In this document: positions 7,956 to 47,911 of the stretch, piece after piece
How positions within the stretch are numbered: the stretch's first letter is position 1
How the letters are laid out: each line of letters begins with the position of its first letter
Assembly (NCBI GenBank): GCA_027045875.1
Contig: JALUAG010000058.1
Span: 1 to 50,286 of the forward strand
Length of the DNA: 50,286 nucleotides
Reading direction: 5' to 3'
Origin: Alphaproteobacteria bacterium
GTDB lineage: Bacteria > Pseudomonadota > Alphaproteobacteria > Geminicoccales > Geminicoccaceae
Notes under the pieces: generated by a model
The model's input: only the letters and a program-made list of their open reading frames with translations
Databases searched by the model: none
Told to the model about the DNA's origin: nothing
Program-made: the position numbers and the translations under genes

Positions 7956-8708
7956 ATGTACGGTTGGCGGGGACGGATCGGCCTGCTGGTGCCCACCGGC
8001 AATTCGGTGATGGAGCCCGAATTCCAGCGCATGGCGCCCGAGGGGGTGACCACCCACGCCAACCGGGTGGAGCTTCGGGACGTGACCCCGGAGAGCCTGC
8101 GCCGGATGGAGGCGGATACGGCGCGGGCCGCGCGCGGCATCGCCAGCGTGCGGGTCGGAGTGATCGCCTTCGGCTGCACCTCGGGCAGCTTCGTCGGCGG
8201 CCGCGGTTACGATGAGAGGCTGCGGCGGCTGATCGAGGAGGCCACCGGGGTTCCGGCCACCACCGCCAGTGGCGCCGTGCTGCGGGCGCTGCGTCTCCTC
8301 GGGGTGAGACGCATCGCGCTGGTTACGCCCTACACCGAGGAGGTAACGCGGCTCGAGGTGGCCTTCCTTGAGGCCAACGGCTTCGAGGTCACGGCGTCCA
8401 GCGCGGGCGGCCTCGTGGAAGTGGCGGACATGCAGGAATGCCCGCCCTGGACGGCCTACCGGCGCGCCCGCGAGGTGGACGATCCCCGCGCCGAGGCGGT
8501 GTTCGTCTCCTGCACCGGCTTCCGGACCATCGAGATGATCGCGGCGCTGGAGGCCGATCTCGGCAAGCCCGTGGTGACCTCCAACCAGGCCCTGTTCGCG
8601 GACTGCCTGCGCATCCTCGGGATCGGCGAGATCGCCGGGGATTTCGGTTCGGTCGTCTCGCGCATGATCGCCGAGCGGCCTCGGGAGCCGGCGGACGCCG
8701 CCGACTGA
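7956..8708 (+). CDS. Maleate isomerase / arylmalonate decarboxylase family protein
   Basis: A 250-residue member of the Asp/Glu racemase superfamily. Two cysteines occupy the catalytic places: Cys74 in AFGCTSGSF and Cys186 in VSCTGFR, as in maleate cis-trans isomerases. The N-terminus GLLVPTGNSVMEPEF is typical of that group. Maleate isomerase turns maleate to fumarate in nicotinate and other ring-degradation pathways; arylmalonate decarboxylase and related racemases share the fold, so the substrate is not proven. The ATG at 7956 is chosen over 7923 because GGGGGAG sits 7 bases before it and the conserved region begins there. It is divergent from ctaG. A NicX-like gene lies 6 kb away. Confidence 0.8.
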   Translation: MYGWRGRIGLLVPTGNSVMEPEFQRMAPEGVTTHANRVELRDVTPESLRRMEADTARAARGIASVRVGVIAFGCTSGSFVGGRGYDERLRRLIEEATGVPATTASGAVLRALRLLGVRRIALVTPYTEEVTRLEVAFLEANGFEVTASSAGGLVEVADMQECPPWTAYRRAREVDDPRAEAVFVSCTGFRTIEMIAALEADLGKPVVTSNQALFADCLRILGIGEIAGDFGSVVSRMIAERPREPADAAD

Positions 8709-42056: not shown

Positions 42057-42485
42057 TCAGCGCCCACCCGCCCGCTCGAGCTTGGCGAGCTCCACCTCGG
42101 TGCGCAGCTCCACCTCGCGCATCAGGGATTCGAGTCGCGGATCGTCGAGGTCCGCCGGGCGGTCGGCGAGGAGCGCGCGGATGCGGTGCAGGGTGGCGGC
42201 GGGCAGTCGGCCGGTGAGCAGGGCGTTGCGGACGTCCTCGAGCTCGTCGAGCAGGGCGTTCGCCCGCGTGACGGCCCGCCGCCGCCGTTCGCCCACGTCC
42301 TCCACCTCCTGAAGGGCGATGAGGGCGCTGCTCGCCGCCACCGTCGCCGTGGCGCCGGCCCGCCCGGCACCGGCGGCGCCGCCGGCCGCGCGCAGCATGT
42401 CGGCGAAGGCACCCGCTTCGCCCGGGCGCGGCGCGGGCGCCGACCGGGCGGTCGGGGAGAAGCTGGAGGCGCGCTCGATTTTCAT
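42057..42485 (-). CDS. fliX: Flagellar assembly regulator FliX
   Basis: A 142-residue protein of the alphaproteobacterial FliX family. Features are the N-terminal MKIERASSFSPT, ALIALQEVEDVGERRRRAV, ANALLDELEDVRNALLTGR and the C-terminal LMREVELRTEVELAKLERAG. FliX links early assembly to late flagellar transcription by acting on the enhancer-binding protein FlbD, which drives sigma54 promoters. It is divergent from flgI, as in Caulobacter. A CtrA-like site lies about 51 bases upstream. It is not essential for structure but is a checkpoint factor, by family knowledge. Confidence 0.92.
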   Translation of the reverse strand: MKIERASSFSPTARSAPAPRPGEAGAFADMLRAAGGAAGAGRAGATATVAASSALIALQEVEDVGERRRRAVTRANALLDELEDVRNALLTGRLPAATLHRIRALLADRPADLDDPRLESLMREVELRTEVELAKLERAGGR

Positions 42486-42535
42486 GACGACGCGATCCCG
42501 GGTTGGATGCCGCCGTCGAGCTTGGCGCCGAAAGC

Positions 42536-42550
42536 TTAATTTTTTCTGAA
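42536..42550. promoter_or_regulatory. CtrA-like binding site upstream of fliX
   Basis: TTAA-N7-TGAA, 3 of 4 matches in the second half to the CtrA consensus TTAA-N7-TTAA, in an AT-rich patch starting 51 bases upstream of the fliX ATG. In Caulobacter fliX is an early gene under CtrA. One mismatch means binding is not assured. Confidence 0.45.
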
Positions 42551-42566
42551 GGGGGAGCGGGCGGGA

Positions 42567-42581
42567 CGGCAAGATTTGCCG
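42567..42581. promoter_or_regulatory. ftr-like FlbD-binding palindrome
   Basis: CGGCAAGATTTGCCG is a perfect inverted repeat with 6-base arms around GAT. It strongly resembles the ftr enhancers bound by FlbD in Caulobacter (CGGCA...TGCCG core), and lies about 100-120 bases upstream of the flgI promoter, where such enhancers act on sigma54 polymerase. It could also repress fliX. Confidence 0.6.
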
Positions 42582-42668
42582 GGGACGGCGGTTTTTTCCC
42601 GGTTCCGCGCCCGGTGCCGGGGCGCCGATCGGCGGGAAGCGGCGCTCGCGCGCGGGCCCCGCGGAAGC

Positions 42669-42684
42669 TGGCACGGATCTCGCG
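42669..42684 (+). promoter_or_regulatory. Sigma54 (-24/-12) promoter of the flgI operon
   Basis: TGGCACGGATCTCGCG has the GG at 42670-42671 and GC at 42682-42683, exactly 10 bases apart, as in the sigma54 consensus TGGCACG-N4-TTGC. Transcription should begin near 42695, leaving a leader of about 49 bases before flgI. Confidence 0.72.
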
Positions 42685-42743
42685 AGGGCTGTGGTGCCCG
42701 ACCGACGACGGCGGGTGGACACACCGGAGGAACACGGACGCCG

Positions 42744-43868
42744 ATGCCCAGACCCGTGCCCGTCTTCGCGCTTTCCTGGATGCTCGCCATCCTCGTCCTG
42801 CCGTGGCTCGCGAGCGGCAGCGCCGTCGCCTCCCGCATCAAGGACGTGGCCAGTTTCGAAGGGGTGCGCGACAACATGCTCGTCGGCTACGGGCTGGTGG
42901 TCGGGCTCAACGGCACCGGCGACAGCCTGCGCAATGCCGCCTTCACCGAGGCCAGCCTGGTGGCCATGCTGGAGCGCCTCGGGGTGGGGACCCGCGGCAG
43001 CAAGCTCAACACCAAGAACGTGGCCGCGGTGATGGTGACCGCCACCCTGCCGCCCTTCGCCCGCCAGGGCACCCGCATCGACGCCACGGTGAGCGCCCTC
43101 GGCGATGCCAAGTCGCTCCTCGGCGGCACGCTCCTCGTGACGCCGCTGGTCGGCGCCGACGGCGAGATCTACGCCGTCGCCCAGGGCTCGCTGGTGGTGG
43201 GCGGCTTCGAGGCGGGCGGCGCGGCCGAAACGGTGACCAAGGGGGTGCCCACCGTGGGCCGGGTGCCCGCCGGCGCCATCGTCGAGCGGGAGGTGGATTT
43301 CGCCCTGGCCGACATGCGCGAGCTGCGCCTCGCGCTGCACAATCCCGATTTCACCACCGCGCAGCGGGTGGCGCGGGCGATCAACGAGCGGCTCGGCCGC
43401 GAGGTGGCGGCGGTCGCCGATTCGGCCACCGTGCGCCTGGTGCTGCCCGAGGACTACCGGGCCCGCACCGCCACCCTGCTGGCCGAGCTCGAGCAGCTGC
43501 CGGTGGAGCCCGATCAGCCGGCCCGCATCGTCATCGACGAGGGGGCGGGGATCATCGTCATGGGCGAGAACGTGCGCATCAGCAAGGTGGCGGTGGCCCA
43601 GGGCAATCTCACCGTCCGCGTCACCGAGGCCCCCCAGGTCTCCCAGCCCCAACCCTTCAGCGACGGCTCCACGGTCGAGGTGCCCCGCACCAACGTCGCC
43701 GTCGACGAGCAGAGCGGCCGCAAGATGGCGATTCTCGAGAGCGGCGTGACCCTCGACCAGCTGGTGGACGGGCTCAACGCCCTGGGCGTGGGTCCCCGTG
43801 ACATGATCAGCATCATTCAGGCCATCCGGGCGGCCGGAGCCCTGCAGGCCGAGATCGAGGTGATGTGA
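42744..43868 (+). CDS. flgI: Flagellar P-ring protein FlgI
   Basis: A 374-residue protein. A signal peptide (LSWMLAILVLPWLASGSAVA) is followed by SRIKDVASFEGVRDNMLVGYGLVVGLNGTGDS, the family hallmark. Other conserved parts are LNTKNVAAVMVTATLPPFARQGTRIDATVS, LEQLPVEPDQPARIVIDE and VQQG-type ends (DMISIIQAIRAAGALQAEI). It forms the P ring around the rod in the peptidoglycan layer. It is the first gene of the flagellar operon, under the sigma54 promoter at 42669. Length is normal. Confidence 0.97.
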   Translation: MPRPVPVFALSWMLAILVLPWLASGSAVASRIKDVASFEGVRDNMLVGYGLVVGLNGTGDSLRNAAFTEASLVAMLERLGVGTRGSKLNTKNVAAVMVTATLPPFARQGTRIDATVSALGDAKSLLGGTLLVTPLVGADGEIYAVAQGSLVVGGFEAGGAAETVTKGVPTVGRVPAGAIVEREVDFALADMRELRLALHNPDFTTAQRVARAINERLGREVAAVADSATVRLVLPEDYRARTATLLAELEQLPVEPDQPARIVIDEGAGIIVMGENVRISKVAVAQGNLTVRVTEAPQVSQPQPFSDGSTVEVPRTNVAVDEQSGRKMAILESGVTLDQLVDGLNALGVGPRDMISIIQAIRAAGALQAEIEVM

Positions 43869-43870
43869 GC

Positions 43871-44161
43871 ATGGAACCGACCCCGACAACCGCCCTCGGC
43901 GTCGCTGCGGCCGGTGATCGGCCCGTCGTTCCGGAGGACGTCGAGCGCACCGCCCGGGAGTTCGAGGCGGTGTTCCTGGCCCGGATGCTGCAGACGGTCG
44001 GTCGGCCGCTGCGGGGGCCCGGGGCCGCCGCCAGCGGCAGCGACGATCCCTGGGGATCGATGCTGATCGACGCCTATGCGCGCATGATCGCCAAGGCGGG
44101 GGGGATCGGCGTCGCCGACGCCGTGATGCGCGAGATGCTGCGCCTGCAGGAGGGCGGCTGA
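43871..44161 (+). CDS. flgJ: Rod-binding protein, FlgJ N-terminal type (CheL-like)
   Basis: A 96-residue protein homologous to the rod-capping N-terminal half of FlgJ, without the muramidase half. Conserved parts are REFEAVFLARMLQTVGRPL, DDPWGSMLIDAYARMIAKAGGIGVADAVM and the C-terminal LRLQEGG. ATG 43871 has GAGGTG upstream; a GTG at 43865 overlaps the flgI stop. It helps rod assembly. The stand-alone form is usual in alphaproteobacteria, sometimes called CheL. It ends TGATG, where the next ATG begins. Confidence 0.9.
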   Translation: MEPTPTTALGVAAAGDRPVVPEDVERTAREFEAVFLARMLQTVGRPLRGPGAAASGSDDPWGSMLIDAYARMIAKAGGIGVADAVMREMLRLQEGG

Positions 44162-44589: not shown

Positions 44590-46410
44590 ATGACCCTGAC
44601 TACCGCCCTTTCCACTGCCCTCACCGGGCTCGACGTCGCCCGACGCAGCCTCCAGGTGACCGCCAACAACGTCGCCAACGTCAACACCGAGGGTTTCGTC
44701 CGCAAGAAACTGGAACAGTCCTCGCTGGTGCTCGACGGGCGCGGCATGGGCGCCCGCAGCGAAGAAGTGGAACGCATAACCGACCGTTTCCTGACCGGCG
44801 AGCTGCGCCGCCAGCGCAGCGTGGCGGCGCGCGATTCGACGCTCGCCAGTGGACTGCTGGACGCCCAGAACGGTCTGTTCGGGCGGCCGGGCGACGACGG
44901 CGGCGGGCTCCAAAAGCGCCTGTCCGAGCTCGCTACCGCGCTGCAGAACTTTTCCCTGCAGCCCGAAAAGACGGCGAGCCGGGTCCACGTGCTCGGCGCG
45001 GTGAGCGATTTCCTCGACCGCATCCGGACCTCGGGCGAGCTCGTGCAGAAGCTCCGCTACGACACCGACCAGCGGATCGCCCAGACGGTGGCCGAGATCA
45101 ACAGCGACATCCTGGCCCTCGACCGGATCAACGAGGAGTTCGCCCGCGGCATCCCCACCGCCGAACTCGAGGACCAGCGCGATCGGCTGCTCGAGAGCCT
45201 CGCCGAGAAGCTCGACATCACGGTGGTCGGTCTCGAGCGCAACACCATCGCCGTTTACGCCCGTGGGGGCACGCCGCTACTCGAGTACTCTCCGCGTCAG
45301 CTCGTCTACTCGCCGGCCGCCCGGGTGGCCGCCGACACGCCGTTCGACGCCATCGAGGTCTACGACGTCTCGCAGCTCGACGAGGACACCGGCGAGCCGC
45401 TCGCCGGCGAGACCGGCATCACGCTGGTGAGCGGCGGCGCCACGCCCGCCACCGGCATCACCGGCGGCCGGCTCAAGGGGCTGCTGGAGCTGCGCGACAG
45501 CCGCCTGCCGCAGCTCGCCGGCCAGTTCGACGAGCTCGCCGAGCTGACCCGCTTCGCGCTCAACGAGGCGCACAACGCGGCCACCGCCTATCCGCCGCCC
45601 ACCTCCCTCACCGGCACCAACGAGACGGCGGCCGCTGCCTACGATGCCGCCACCCGCTCGGGTACCGCCTATCTTTCGGTGATCGACCGCTCGACCGGCG
45701 ACACGGTGACCACGGTGGCCGTCGACATGAGCGACGATGCGGCGACGCTGGTGGCCAATCTGTCGACCGCACTCGCCGCCTACGGCACGGTGACCCTCAC
45801 CGGTGACGGACCGCTCGCCATCGACCTCGGCACCTACGGCATCGCCATCAGCGAGGGCGACAGCTCCATCACCGTCACCGATGCCGACGGACGGACGCGG
45901 GACTACAGCTTCTCGCACTATTTCGGGCTCAACGATCTGGTGGTCAAGACCGGCGACGAGGCGACCGCGCTCGCCGTCAACCCGACGCTGGAGGCGGATC
46001 CGAGACTGCTGGCGGCGGCCAGCCTCGAGGTGGACACCGGCGGTCCGCCGGTCGGCACCCTCGGCGGGGCCGGCGACAATCGCGGCGCGCTCGGGCTCAT
46101 TGGCGCCCTCGAACGCAAACTCGACACCCTCACCCAGGGCGCGCTGCCGGGGCGGTCGACGAGCATGCGCGACTATGCGGTGGACATGGTGGCGGTGCAG
46201 GCGCAGGCGGTGGATCGGGCGCGGACGGCGGCCGACGCCTCCGAAAGCCTCGTCGCGGACCTCGAGTTCCGGCGTTCCTCGGTGTCGGGCGTCAATCTCG
46301 ACGAGGAGCTGTCGCGGCTGGTGCTCTACCAGCAGGCCTACACCGCCTCGGCGCGGGTGCTCACGACCACGAGCGAGCTCTTCGACGAGCTCATGAACCT
46401 CGCGCGCTAG
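44590..46410 (+). CDS. flgK: Flagellar hook-associated protein 1 FlgK
   Basis: A 606-residue hook-filament junction protein. The N-terminal rod/hook motif TTALSTALTGLDVARRSLQV with ANNVANVNTEGFVRK is conserved, and the C-terminus VNLDEELSRLVLYQQAYTAS, ARVLTTTSELFDELMNL is the FlgK signature. The centre is variable (Thr/Ala-rich). It assembles between hook and filament with FlgL. It follows flgN closely. The start has GGAGCGCGATGCC upstream. Confidence 0.95.
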   Translation: MTLTTALSTALTGLDVARRSLQVTANNVANVNTEGFVRKKLEQSSLVLDGRGMGARSEEVERITDRFLTGELRRQRSVAARDSTLASGLLDAQNGLFGRPGDDGGGLQKRLSELATALQNFSLQPEKTASRVHVLGAVSDFLDRIRTSGELVQKLRYDTDQRIAQTVAEINSDILALDRINEEFARGIPTAELEDQRDRLLESLAEKLDITVVGLERNTIAVYARGGTPLLEYSPRQLVYSPAARVAADTPFDAIEVYDVSQLDEDTGEPLAGETGITLVSGGATPATGITGGRLKGLLELRDSRLPQLAGQFDELAELTRFALNEAHNAATAYPPPTSLTGTNETAAAAYDAATRSGTAYLSVIDRSTGDTVTTVAVDMSDDAATLVANLSTALAAYGTVTLTGDGPLAIDLGTYGIAISEGDSSITVTDADGRTRDYSFSHYFGLNDLVVKTGDEATALAVNPTLEADPRLLAAASLEVDTGGPPVGTLGGAGDNRGALGLIGALERKLDTLTQGALPGRSTSMRDYAVDMVAVQAQAVDRARTAADASESLVADLEFRRSSVSGVNLDEELSRLVLYQQAYTASARVLTTTSELFDELMNLAR

Positions 46411-46431: not shown

Positions 46432-47331
46432 ATGACCACGCGGGTCGGCGACGTTGCCCAGCAGGCTCTGCTCATGCAGGCCCTGCAGACCACCCAGGGG
46501 CGGATACGCGAAACCCAGATGGCGATCGCGTCCGGCAAGCAGGAGCGCAGTTTCGACCGCATGGCGGCGGAGGTGCCACGGCTCCTGAGCACCCGTTTCG
46601 ACCGCAGCCTCAATGCCGGCCACATCCGCCAGAACGAACATGTGATCGACCGCATGCAGGCGATGGACGGGGCCCTCGAGAGTCTGGGCCGCATTGCCGA
46701 ACGGGCGCGTACCCTGATCGTGCAGCGTCTCAACGACGGCATCGGCGAGGACGTGCCCCTCGACGCCGAGCTCGAATCGATGCTGGAGGAGGTGGAGGCG
46801 CGGCTCAACACACGGCTCGACGGACGCTATCTGTTCGCCGGCAGCCGCACCGACAGCCGACCGGTCTCCATCCCCGATCCGCCGCCGACGACCGCCGATT
46901 CCTCCCTCTACTACGCCGGCGACGATCTCGAGCTCGTCGTCCAGGCCGAGGAAGGGGTGGAGCTCGCCTACGGCATCCCGGCCAGCAATTCCGCCTTCGA
47001 GTGGCTGGTGGGCGCGCTCGGGCTCGCCCGCCAGGCGCATCTCGCCAACGATACCGGCGATCTCGAGAGCGCGCTCGACAATCTCACCACCGCCATCGAG
47101 CGTCTCGCCGATCTGCGCGGCGATCTCGGCGCGAAACGCGACCGCCTTGAGGCCATCGTCGAGGTACAGAAGGCCGACCAAGTCTACTTCGACGAGATGG
47201 TGAGCGACATCGAGGATACCGATCTCGCCGCGGCGTTGAGCCGTCTCGCCCGGGACCGCAGCGCCCTCGAGGCCTCCTATCTGGCCGTGACCCGGCTCTC
47301 GCAGCTGAGCATTGCGGAATATCTGCGGTGA
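46432..47331 (+). CDS. flgL: Flagellar hook-associated protein 3 FlgL
   Basis: A 299-residue protein of the flagellin/FlgL superfamily. The N-terminus (LLMQALQTTQGRIRETQMAIASGKQ) and C-terminus (LAAALSRLARDRSALEASYL, AVTRLSQLSIAEYLR) are the paired coiled-coil ends of the family. Mid-regions LNTRLDGRYLFAGSRTD match FlgL. It caps the hook with FlgK. The start is 21 bases after flgK, so it is in the same operon. It is shorter than many enteric FlgL but normal for alphaproteobacteria. Confidence 0.93.
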   Translation: MTTRVGDVAQQALLMQALQTTQGRIRETQMAIASGKQERSFDRMAAEVPRLLSTRFDRSLNAGHIRQNEHVIDRMQAMDGALESLGRIAERARTLIVQRLNDGIGEDVPLDAELESMLEEVEARLNTRLDGRYLFAGSRTDSRPVSIPDPPPTTADSSLYYAGDDLELVVQAEEGVELAYGIPASNSAFEWLVGALGLARQAHLANDTGDLESALDNLTTAIERLADLRGDLGAKRDRLEAIVEVQKADQVYFDEMVSDIEDTDLAAALSRLARDRSALEASYLAVTRLSQLSIAEYLR

Positions 47332-47413
47332 CGGCCGGCCGCTTAGGAGAAAATTAACCCTGATCCGTCATGTTGCGCGCACCATCGCGGGCCGCCAACG
47401 GAGGTGTACAGCC

Positions 47414-47911
47414 ATGCAGGAACTCGCTTCGAACAGGAGGGAGGCGGCTGCCGGGAACGGCGGCACCGTTCCCGCCCATCCCGTCGCCGACCGGCATCCC
47501 GCCGAGATGGCCGCCGACGCCGTCGCCCTGCCGCGCGGTCTGCCCGGGTTCCCGCAGGCCCGGGGGTTCCGGCTGGAGGAGCTGCCCCGCTGCCAGGGCA
47601 GGTTCCTGCTGCTGCGACTGATCGCCGAAGAGCCCGCCTCGCTGATCGTCATGCCCACCGCGCCGGAGACCGCCCCGCTGGCCGCCGCCGACGTCGCGGC
47701 CGTCTGCGGTGCGCTGGACATCGCGCCGGCGGATCTTTGCCTGCTGCTGGTGGTCACCCTGGCCCGCGAGGAGGGAGAGGAGGGGGTGCGCGCCTACGTG
47801 AACCTGCGAGCCCCCATCTTCCTCGACACCCGCCGCCGGCTGGCCGCCCAGATGGTGCTCGCCGACAGCAGCTATCCGCTGCGTCATCCGCTGCAGCGGC
47901 AGGCCGCATGA
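47414..47911 (+). CDS. fliW: Flagellar assembly factor FliW
   Basis: A 165-residue protein. LPRGLPGFPQARGFRLEELP and the C-terminal LRAPIFLDTRRRLAAQMVLA, DSSYPLRHPL are FliW signatures. FliW binds flagellin and CsrA in other bacteria, coupling flagellin level to translation. The N-terminal 35-40 residues are an unusual extension before the conserved part. It lies 82 bases after flgL and its stop overlaps the next gene's ATG (ATGA). FliW is not the usual regulator of flagellin in alphaproteobacteria, where FlaF/FlbT serve, so its presence here is notable. Confidence 0.88.
   Translation: MQELASNRREAAAGNGGTVPAHPVADRHPAEMAADAVALPRGLPGFPQARGFRLEELPRCQGRFLLLRLIAEEPASLIVMPTAPETAPLAAADVAAVCGALDIAPADLCLLLVVTLAREEGEEGVRAYVNLRAPIFLDTRRRLAAQMVLADSSYPLRHPLQRQAA

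Follow-up and report, generated by a model that had tools for sequence, protein, structure and literature searches.

A divergent fliX/flgI interval in Geminicoccaceae with the features of a Caulobacter-type bidirectional flagellar control region

In the stretch of Geminicoccaceae DNA analysed here (50,286 nucleotides, hereafter the window), fliX is transcribed leftward and flgI rightward from an interval of 258 bp (42486–42743). The genes of the locus and the elements predicted between them are collected in Table 1. The best NCBIfam match of FliX was NF050808, at 105.5 bits and below the curated cut-off of 175. Its residue L82, lying 14 residues past the middle of a charged run, is a leucine in 133 of 135 aligned rows, the other two being gaps. 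In Caulobacter, L85 of FliX is needed for the binding of FlbD (PMC3096577), and to judge by that description L82 may be the equivalent residue. A second FliX match in a genome of the same genus (L026, G017:C6:77660–78010) scored 21.3 bits, which is below the cut-off, and was unrecognised by the family FliX profile. On the other side of the interval, the spacing of the genes makes it likely that the flgJ-like, flgK and flgL-like genes belong to one operon with flgI.

Table 1. Genes and predicted elements of the fliX/flgI locus, in window coordinates
Feature	Position	Strand	Description
fliX	42057–42485	-	Flagellar assembly regulator / FlbD partner, 142 aa; PF10768, E 2e-32, above cut-off
CtrA-like box	42536–42550	-	TTAA-N7-TGAA on the + strand, TTCA-N7-TTAA towards fliX; TTAATTTTTTCTGAA; one half imperfect
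ftr-like palindrome, predicted FlbD enhancer	42567–42581	.	CGGCAAGATTTGCCG; exact CGGCA-N5-TGCCG
Degenerate second ftr	42586–42600	.	CGGCGGTTTTTTCCC; 3/10 mismatches; 19 bp past the first ftr
Predicted sigma54 -24/-12 promoter of flgI	42669–42684	+	TGGCACGGATCTCGCG; TGGCACG-N4-TCGC, exact GG-N10-GC
flgI	42744–43868	+	P-ring protein, 374 aa; NF003676, E 3e-137; PF02119
flgJ-like	43865–44161	+	Rod-binding protein; PF10135, 27.4 bits, cut-off 25.1
flgK	44590–46410	+	PF22638, PF00460, PF06429
flgL-like	46432–47331	+	Flagellin_N and Flagellin_C
FliW-family gene	47312–47911		PF02623; behind flgL

The initial annotation had placed three elements in this interval, a CtrA-like box near fliX, an ftr palindrome and a sigma54 promoter with an exact GG-N10-GC near flgI, and all three were located there both by reading and by script. 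Measured to the start codon of fliX, the CtrA-like box stands at 50 bp, a spacing often met across the class. A gap of 16 bp separates it from the ftr palindrome (gaps of 3–17 bp are common among relatives), which in turn precedes the -24 box by 102 bp, within looping distance. A second ftr site is present in many relatives; in the congener G017 it is a 1-mismatch copy 20 bp beyond the first. The region had also been described as complete, a word that proved too strong given the degenerate second ftr of the window and a linker between ftr and promoter, 20% AT, with no IHF-like site. The best match in this linker to the IHF consensus carries 5/9 mismatches, and neither the window nor its congeners have an IHF-like site within 3 mismatches. 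Among 139 linkers, IHF-like sites (at most 2/9 mismatches) were found in 82, against 38.5 expected from mononucleotide shuffles. In both respects, the degenerate second ftr and the flgI linker free of an IHF-like site, the window is unlike Caulobacter, where IHF is required according to PMC3096577.

How far such patterns would arise by chance differs between the elements. TTAA-N7-TTAA, with at most one mismatch, occurs twice in the 50-kb window (here and at 47343), against 0.11 expected. The exact CGGCA-N5-TGCCG occurs once against 0.25 expected, with at least one occurrence in 22 of 100 shuffles, and TGGCACGN5YGC once against 0.83 expected, with at least one in 58 of 100 shuffles. A stricter form of ftr, CGGCAANNTTTGCCG, gave two matches within one mismatch (both strands of a single site) against 0.01 expected, this pattern having been picked after the site was seen. 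Genome-wide, the exact ftr palindrome is not enriched, with 27 places against 33 for a control pattern; at least 4 of the 27 lie in flagellar promoters (flgI, fliK and two at flagellin). By themselves, neither the ftr nor the sigma54 pattern stands clear of chance or would convince, so that the case for them rests on conservation and joint position.

The palindrome could in principle act as an RNA hairpin or terminator rather than as a DNA operator, and a terminator-like stem with a T-run was in fact called at 42576. Yet 0.5 such sites are expected by chance, the palindrome folds as RNA no better than shuffled sequence (z 0.40) and the stretch 42300–42900 has no Rfam match, on which grounds this reading was rejected. 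Moreover, the congeners have lost or lack the T-run, and the palindrome stands upstream of both fliX and flgI. We regard an RNA role as extremely improbable and treat the palindrome as a candidate operator.

Conservation was followed at the level of the genus, the family and the class. In the 31 genomes of the family that were searched, the window's included, FliX was detected at E ≤ 0.001 in 24, and in 20 of these fliX and flgI are divergent on the fetched stretch, one locus each. The family loci, 80 further loci and 30 class loci made up a first set of 135 (set 1), which consists of the best-scoring FliX matches and is not a random sample. After 15 were dropped (nine without flgI in the stretch, one without fliX and five at an unsuitable distance), 120 usable divergent pairs were left, nearly all alphaproteobacterial, with one record titled Marinimicrobia (L120). 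A sigma54 box (at least 9/12 positions, with GG and GC fixed) was found in 119 of the 120 regions, against about 13 expected from summed shuffles; allowing at most one mismatch, ftr was found in 90 (about 5 expected) and a CtrA-like box in 79 (about 10 expected). Without five near-duplicates the counts are 114, 86 and 75 of 115. The three elements occur together in 57 of the 120 regions, and in 52 of the 54 such regions left after removal of the near-duplicates they follow the order CtrA, ftr, sigma54. The TCGC at the -12 position of the window's promoter is no defect, since it is the commonest form (74/114). Within the family, ftr is exact or has a single mismatch in 20/20 loci, and the congeners G016 and G017 have each preserved TTAA-N7-TGAA together with an exact ftr and a sigma54 box.

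A hold-out set was assembled from the listed matches that had no set-1 locus, minus four of the window's family and minus G288, which lies at a contig edge. Of 115 loci fetched, 28 were dropped (27 without flgI in the fetched stretch and one too short), and the 87 usable ones contained a sigma54 box in 81, ftr in 53 and a CtrA-like box in 40, where reversed or mirrored controls gave 12, 6 and 13. Not every locus shares the divergent layout: in 27 of the 115 hold-out loci (L266–L380) the 1.4 kb fetched upstream of fliX contained no flgI. At least one stretch is truncated by the end of its contig, and in one locus the two genes stood too close together. No usable divergent pair came from 19 of 69 families. 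The expectation that the region is conserved in its lineage was thus borne out, in both congeners and widely in the family and class, in set 1 as well as in the hold-out. As to the lineage, the genome belongs not to Rhodospirillales but to the Geminicoccaceae, NCBI order Geminicoccales.

One half of the CtrA-like box is imperfect, and no such box was found within one mismatch in 41 of the 120 regions, including 4 of the 20 of the family. Five Caulobacter-titled loci (L068, L069, L070, L123 and L125) all have fliX and flgI in divergent orientation, with a sigma54 box and a 1-mismatch ftr in 5/5; only L068 has a CtrA-like box within one mismatch, and the other four differ from the window in this respect. 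That the box is missed in four of five Caulobacter-titled loci makes the 1-mismatch threshold an insensitive test of CtrA control. It might nonetheless be argued from these absences that only the flgI side, with FlbD and sigma54, is real, and that fliX is read from an ordinary promoter with the TTAA box as a chance AT-rich patch. Against this stand the 0.11 occurrences expected by chance per 50-kb window, the presence of TTAA-N7-TGAA in 3/3 genomes of the genus, counting that of the window, although the N7 between the halves varies in part, and the failure to find a promoter of the sigma70 type in 42400–42800.

A further argument against a one-sided region comes from genus g5 (G004 and G005), where fliX and flgI are unlinked. 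There, flgI has an exact ftr, CGGCAGGAATTGCCG, an imperfect second copy and a sigma54 box, TGGCCCGGCCTTTGCT, and its region contains no CtrA-like box. The unlinked fliX, in turn, has TTAA-N7-TTCA or TTCA-N7-TTAA beside it, but no ftr at up to one mismatch. In genus g5, each element stays with the gene predicted by the Caulobacter-type model, and comparative sequence thus shows that the two halves of the fliX/flgI switch are separable. We therefore think it improbable that the flgI half alone is functional, and prefer a region in which both sides are controlled.

The regulators that such a region would need are encoded in the genome. The absence of FlbD had been named as a finding that would speak against the proposed circuit; FlbD is present (NF050807, E 6e-210, 697.8 bits, below the curated cut-off of 750, the next best family scoring 366 bits), and its gene adjoins flhA, behind fliF, fliG, a fliH-like gene, fliN and a motA-like gene. 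CtrA matches NF045991 with 389.4 bits (cut-off 350), and one RpoN is encoded. A DUF1153 gene, whose product we take to be SciP-type, lies between flgE and fliF. Across the family, 23 of the 31 genomes have an FlbD match beyond E 1e-150 and the core-binding domain of RpoN was found in 28 of 31, the three without a match being G014, G016 (a congener) and G025; the assemblies of G016 and G014 are in 660 and 380 contigs, respectively. No FlbD turned up in G011, G012 or G014, though each keeps ftr within one mismatch. An assembly gap is likely in these three, because G011 and G014 have contigs that begin within flhA and a search of G012 recovered no flhA. An apparent absence of FlbD in G013 was set aside, a 68.6%-identical fragment being present.

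The receiver domain of FlbD is degenerate in all 22 family FlbDs that were aligned (from 24 sequences, of which two were fragments and were excluded): the conserved Lys is substituted and the acidic pair changed, in one case to Glu-Glu, and in 3/3 of the genus a Glu occupies the Asp position. In Caulobacter as well, the FlbD receiver is without key residues, and FliX regulates FlbD instead of phosphorylation (PMC3096577). Two genomes of the family have lost elements. In G026 no FliX match was found, no enhancer-binding protein scored like FlbD (best 345.9 bits), and flgI follows immediately on a flgL-like gene, with no sigma54 box and no ftr in front of it. In G001, likewise without a FliX match, flgI lacks both ftr and sigma54 box and fliK keeps the two. 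Its FlbD (L232 / L257), encoded in the usual fli locus, retains an AAA+ and HTH part that is 68% identical, and has a diverged receiver. This single genome, with a diverged receiver and no FliX match, suggests that the receiver is the dock of FliX. Loss of the elements in close relatives with intact genes had also been named as evidence that would count against conservation; both congeners keep them, and flgI is without ftr and sigma54 box in G001 and G026, both of which have no FliX match.

Beyond presence and order, the distance between ftr and the sigma54 box appeared periodic in set 1 at about 10.5 bp, which is what looping by FlbD would predict. A hold-out test of the spacing was fixed in writing before further loci were fetched. 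All spacing tests were confined to ftr sites that precede the sigma54 box by 40–160 bp, and of 52 hold-out rows 4 were removed as similar to set 1. The test was passed (V=0.53, n=48), with 0 of 5000 jittered sets as high, and the phase fell within 0.5–0.8 bp of that in set 1. With one locus per family (32 families) the median p was 4e-5 and the largest 4e-4, and with exact ftr sites only, per family (17 families), p was 0.005. When 78 FliX clusters were pooled, R was 0.44–0.49, against 0.11–0.15 for three control distances, which were flat. With 15 coarse clusters R was 0.58–0.71 (p 0.0004–0.008), the corresponding CtrA–sigma54 control in 11 clusters giving R 0.49 (p 0.09). Sister-pair contrasts were weaker, with 34 of 69 pairs changed, V 0.21–0.23 and p 0.008–0.04. 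These tests control for ancestry only in part, and set 1 and the hold-out may share families. The 102-bp spacing of the window departs from the modal phase by 2.6 bp, and the spacings in its congeners by 3.6 and 4.6 bp.

The gap between the CtrA-like box and ftr also appears periodic in set 1 and in the pooled data (R=0.54, 46 clusters). This bears on a further idea, namely that ftr in addition represses fliX, so that FlbD would shut off its own partner while activating flgI. In its favour are the gap of 16 bp in the window, with similar gaps common among relatives, and the precedent of repression by FlbD at fliF, through ftr4, in Caulobacter (PMC3930126). However, the phasing is weak in a hold-out test that was likewise specified beforehand (V=0.21, n=22, p 0.05–0.09) and in nine coarse clusters (p 0.14), for which reason it is not claimed here, and the unlinked fliX of G004 and G005 has kept its CtrA-like box with no ftr within reach of one mismatch. 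Feedback of FlbD on fliX is accordingly a speculative addition that we consider rather unlikely, and activation of flgI is taken as the role of ftr in what follows.

Read jointly across the class, the spacing data make it probable, on our reading of the sequences, that selection fixes the helical register of ftr and sigma54 box at flgI and that the spacing, which ranges over about 58–144 bp, tends to shift by whole turns. The region would then work as one looped nucleoprotein switch, possibly with a phased CtrA box, and genus g1, that of the window, may be a shifted-register or IHF-free variant. Face-of-the-helix dependent activation of sigma54 promoters is described for one two-site NtrC system in a review (PMC7408454). 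For FlbD the dependence is drawn here from natural sequence variation rather than from insertion mutants. The class-wide periodicity provides a way of testing, from sequence, how FlbD loops.

The encoded regulators, the conserved elements, the class-wide periodicity of the spacing and the segregation of these elements with the predicted genes in G004 and G005 all support a Caulobacter-type reading, as the initial annotation had suggested. We are strongly inclined to see in the 258 bp a bidirectional flagellar control region of this type, including the proposed CtrA/FliX/FlbD/sigma54 circuit; binding, activation, timing and the assembly checkpoint are carried over from Caulobacter by analogy. 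Phosphorylated CtrA would bind the TTAA box, some 50 bp ahead of fliX, to start the leftward, class II transcription of that gene. FliX would license FlbD after the early flagellum is built, and FlbD would bind the ftr palindrome and reach, through a loop of about 100 bp, the sigma54-RNA polymerase at TGGCACG-N4-TCGC. FlbD and sigma54 together would thereby switch on the rightward class III transcription of flgI-flgJ-flgK-flgL.

The region is a conserved and ordinary example of a known regulatory kind, to which the present analysis adds the segregation test and the periodicity of the spacing. With it, a predicted divergent switch of CtrA and FlbD-sigma54 is located in the Geminicoccaceae, outside the family of the model organism. 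The fliX/flgI region is reportedly the subject of older papers, Mohr 1998 and Khambaty and Ely 1992, and its layout is perhaps already in print for Caulobacter. In a literature search that covered few subscription papers, no paper title on the fliX/flgI control region was found, nothing was found on FlbD with FliX in Rhodospirillales, and the literature on FlbD, ftr and spacing was nearly empty. A query combining FlbD, FliX and flgI, with the same coverage, returned only a paper on gum synthesis in Sphingomonas (PMC8921679). The fla2 system of Rhodobacter sphaeroides, as presented in PMC6180460, resembles the present region in its divergent flagellar promoters with CtrA boxes and differs from it in that CtrA drives both directions; FlbD is reported to be absent from the Rhodobacteraceae shown there.

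The likeness to the hierarchy of Caulobacter crescentus extends through the genome. CtrA, FlbD, FliX, RpoN and the DUF1153 protein are shared, and the divergent arrangement of fliX and flgI is also that of the five Caulobacter-titled loci. CtrA-like boxes lie at fliX, at fliF (TTAACCTCCTGTTCA, one mismatch) and at the flgB-like gene, where a perfect TTAA-N7-TTAAC was read by eye. Besides flgI, ftr occurs together with a sigma54-type box at three further genes: fliK has an exact ftr and a sigma54 box (TGGCACGGGCGTTGCA), the flgF-like gene a 1-mismatch ftr and a sigma54 box (TGGCCCGACGTTTGCT), and flagellin tandem exact ftr sites with a sigma54-like box, TGGCACGGTTCTTGGA, which was seen by eye and was not passed by the sigma54 scan because it has GG rather than GC at -12. 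The interval between fliL and flgF (L261, about 8090–8340) constitutes a second divergent region, in which the 1-mismatch ftr and the sigma54 box are accompanied on the fliL side by a TTAA box that lies beyond one mismatch. As a side observation, a csrA-family gene is found elsewhere in the genome (L181), divergent from the flgB-like gene; with a FliW-family gene also present, behind flgL, control of the FliW-CsrA type may coexist with FliX-FlbD.
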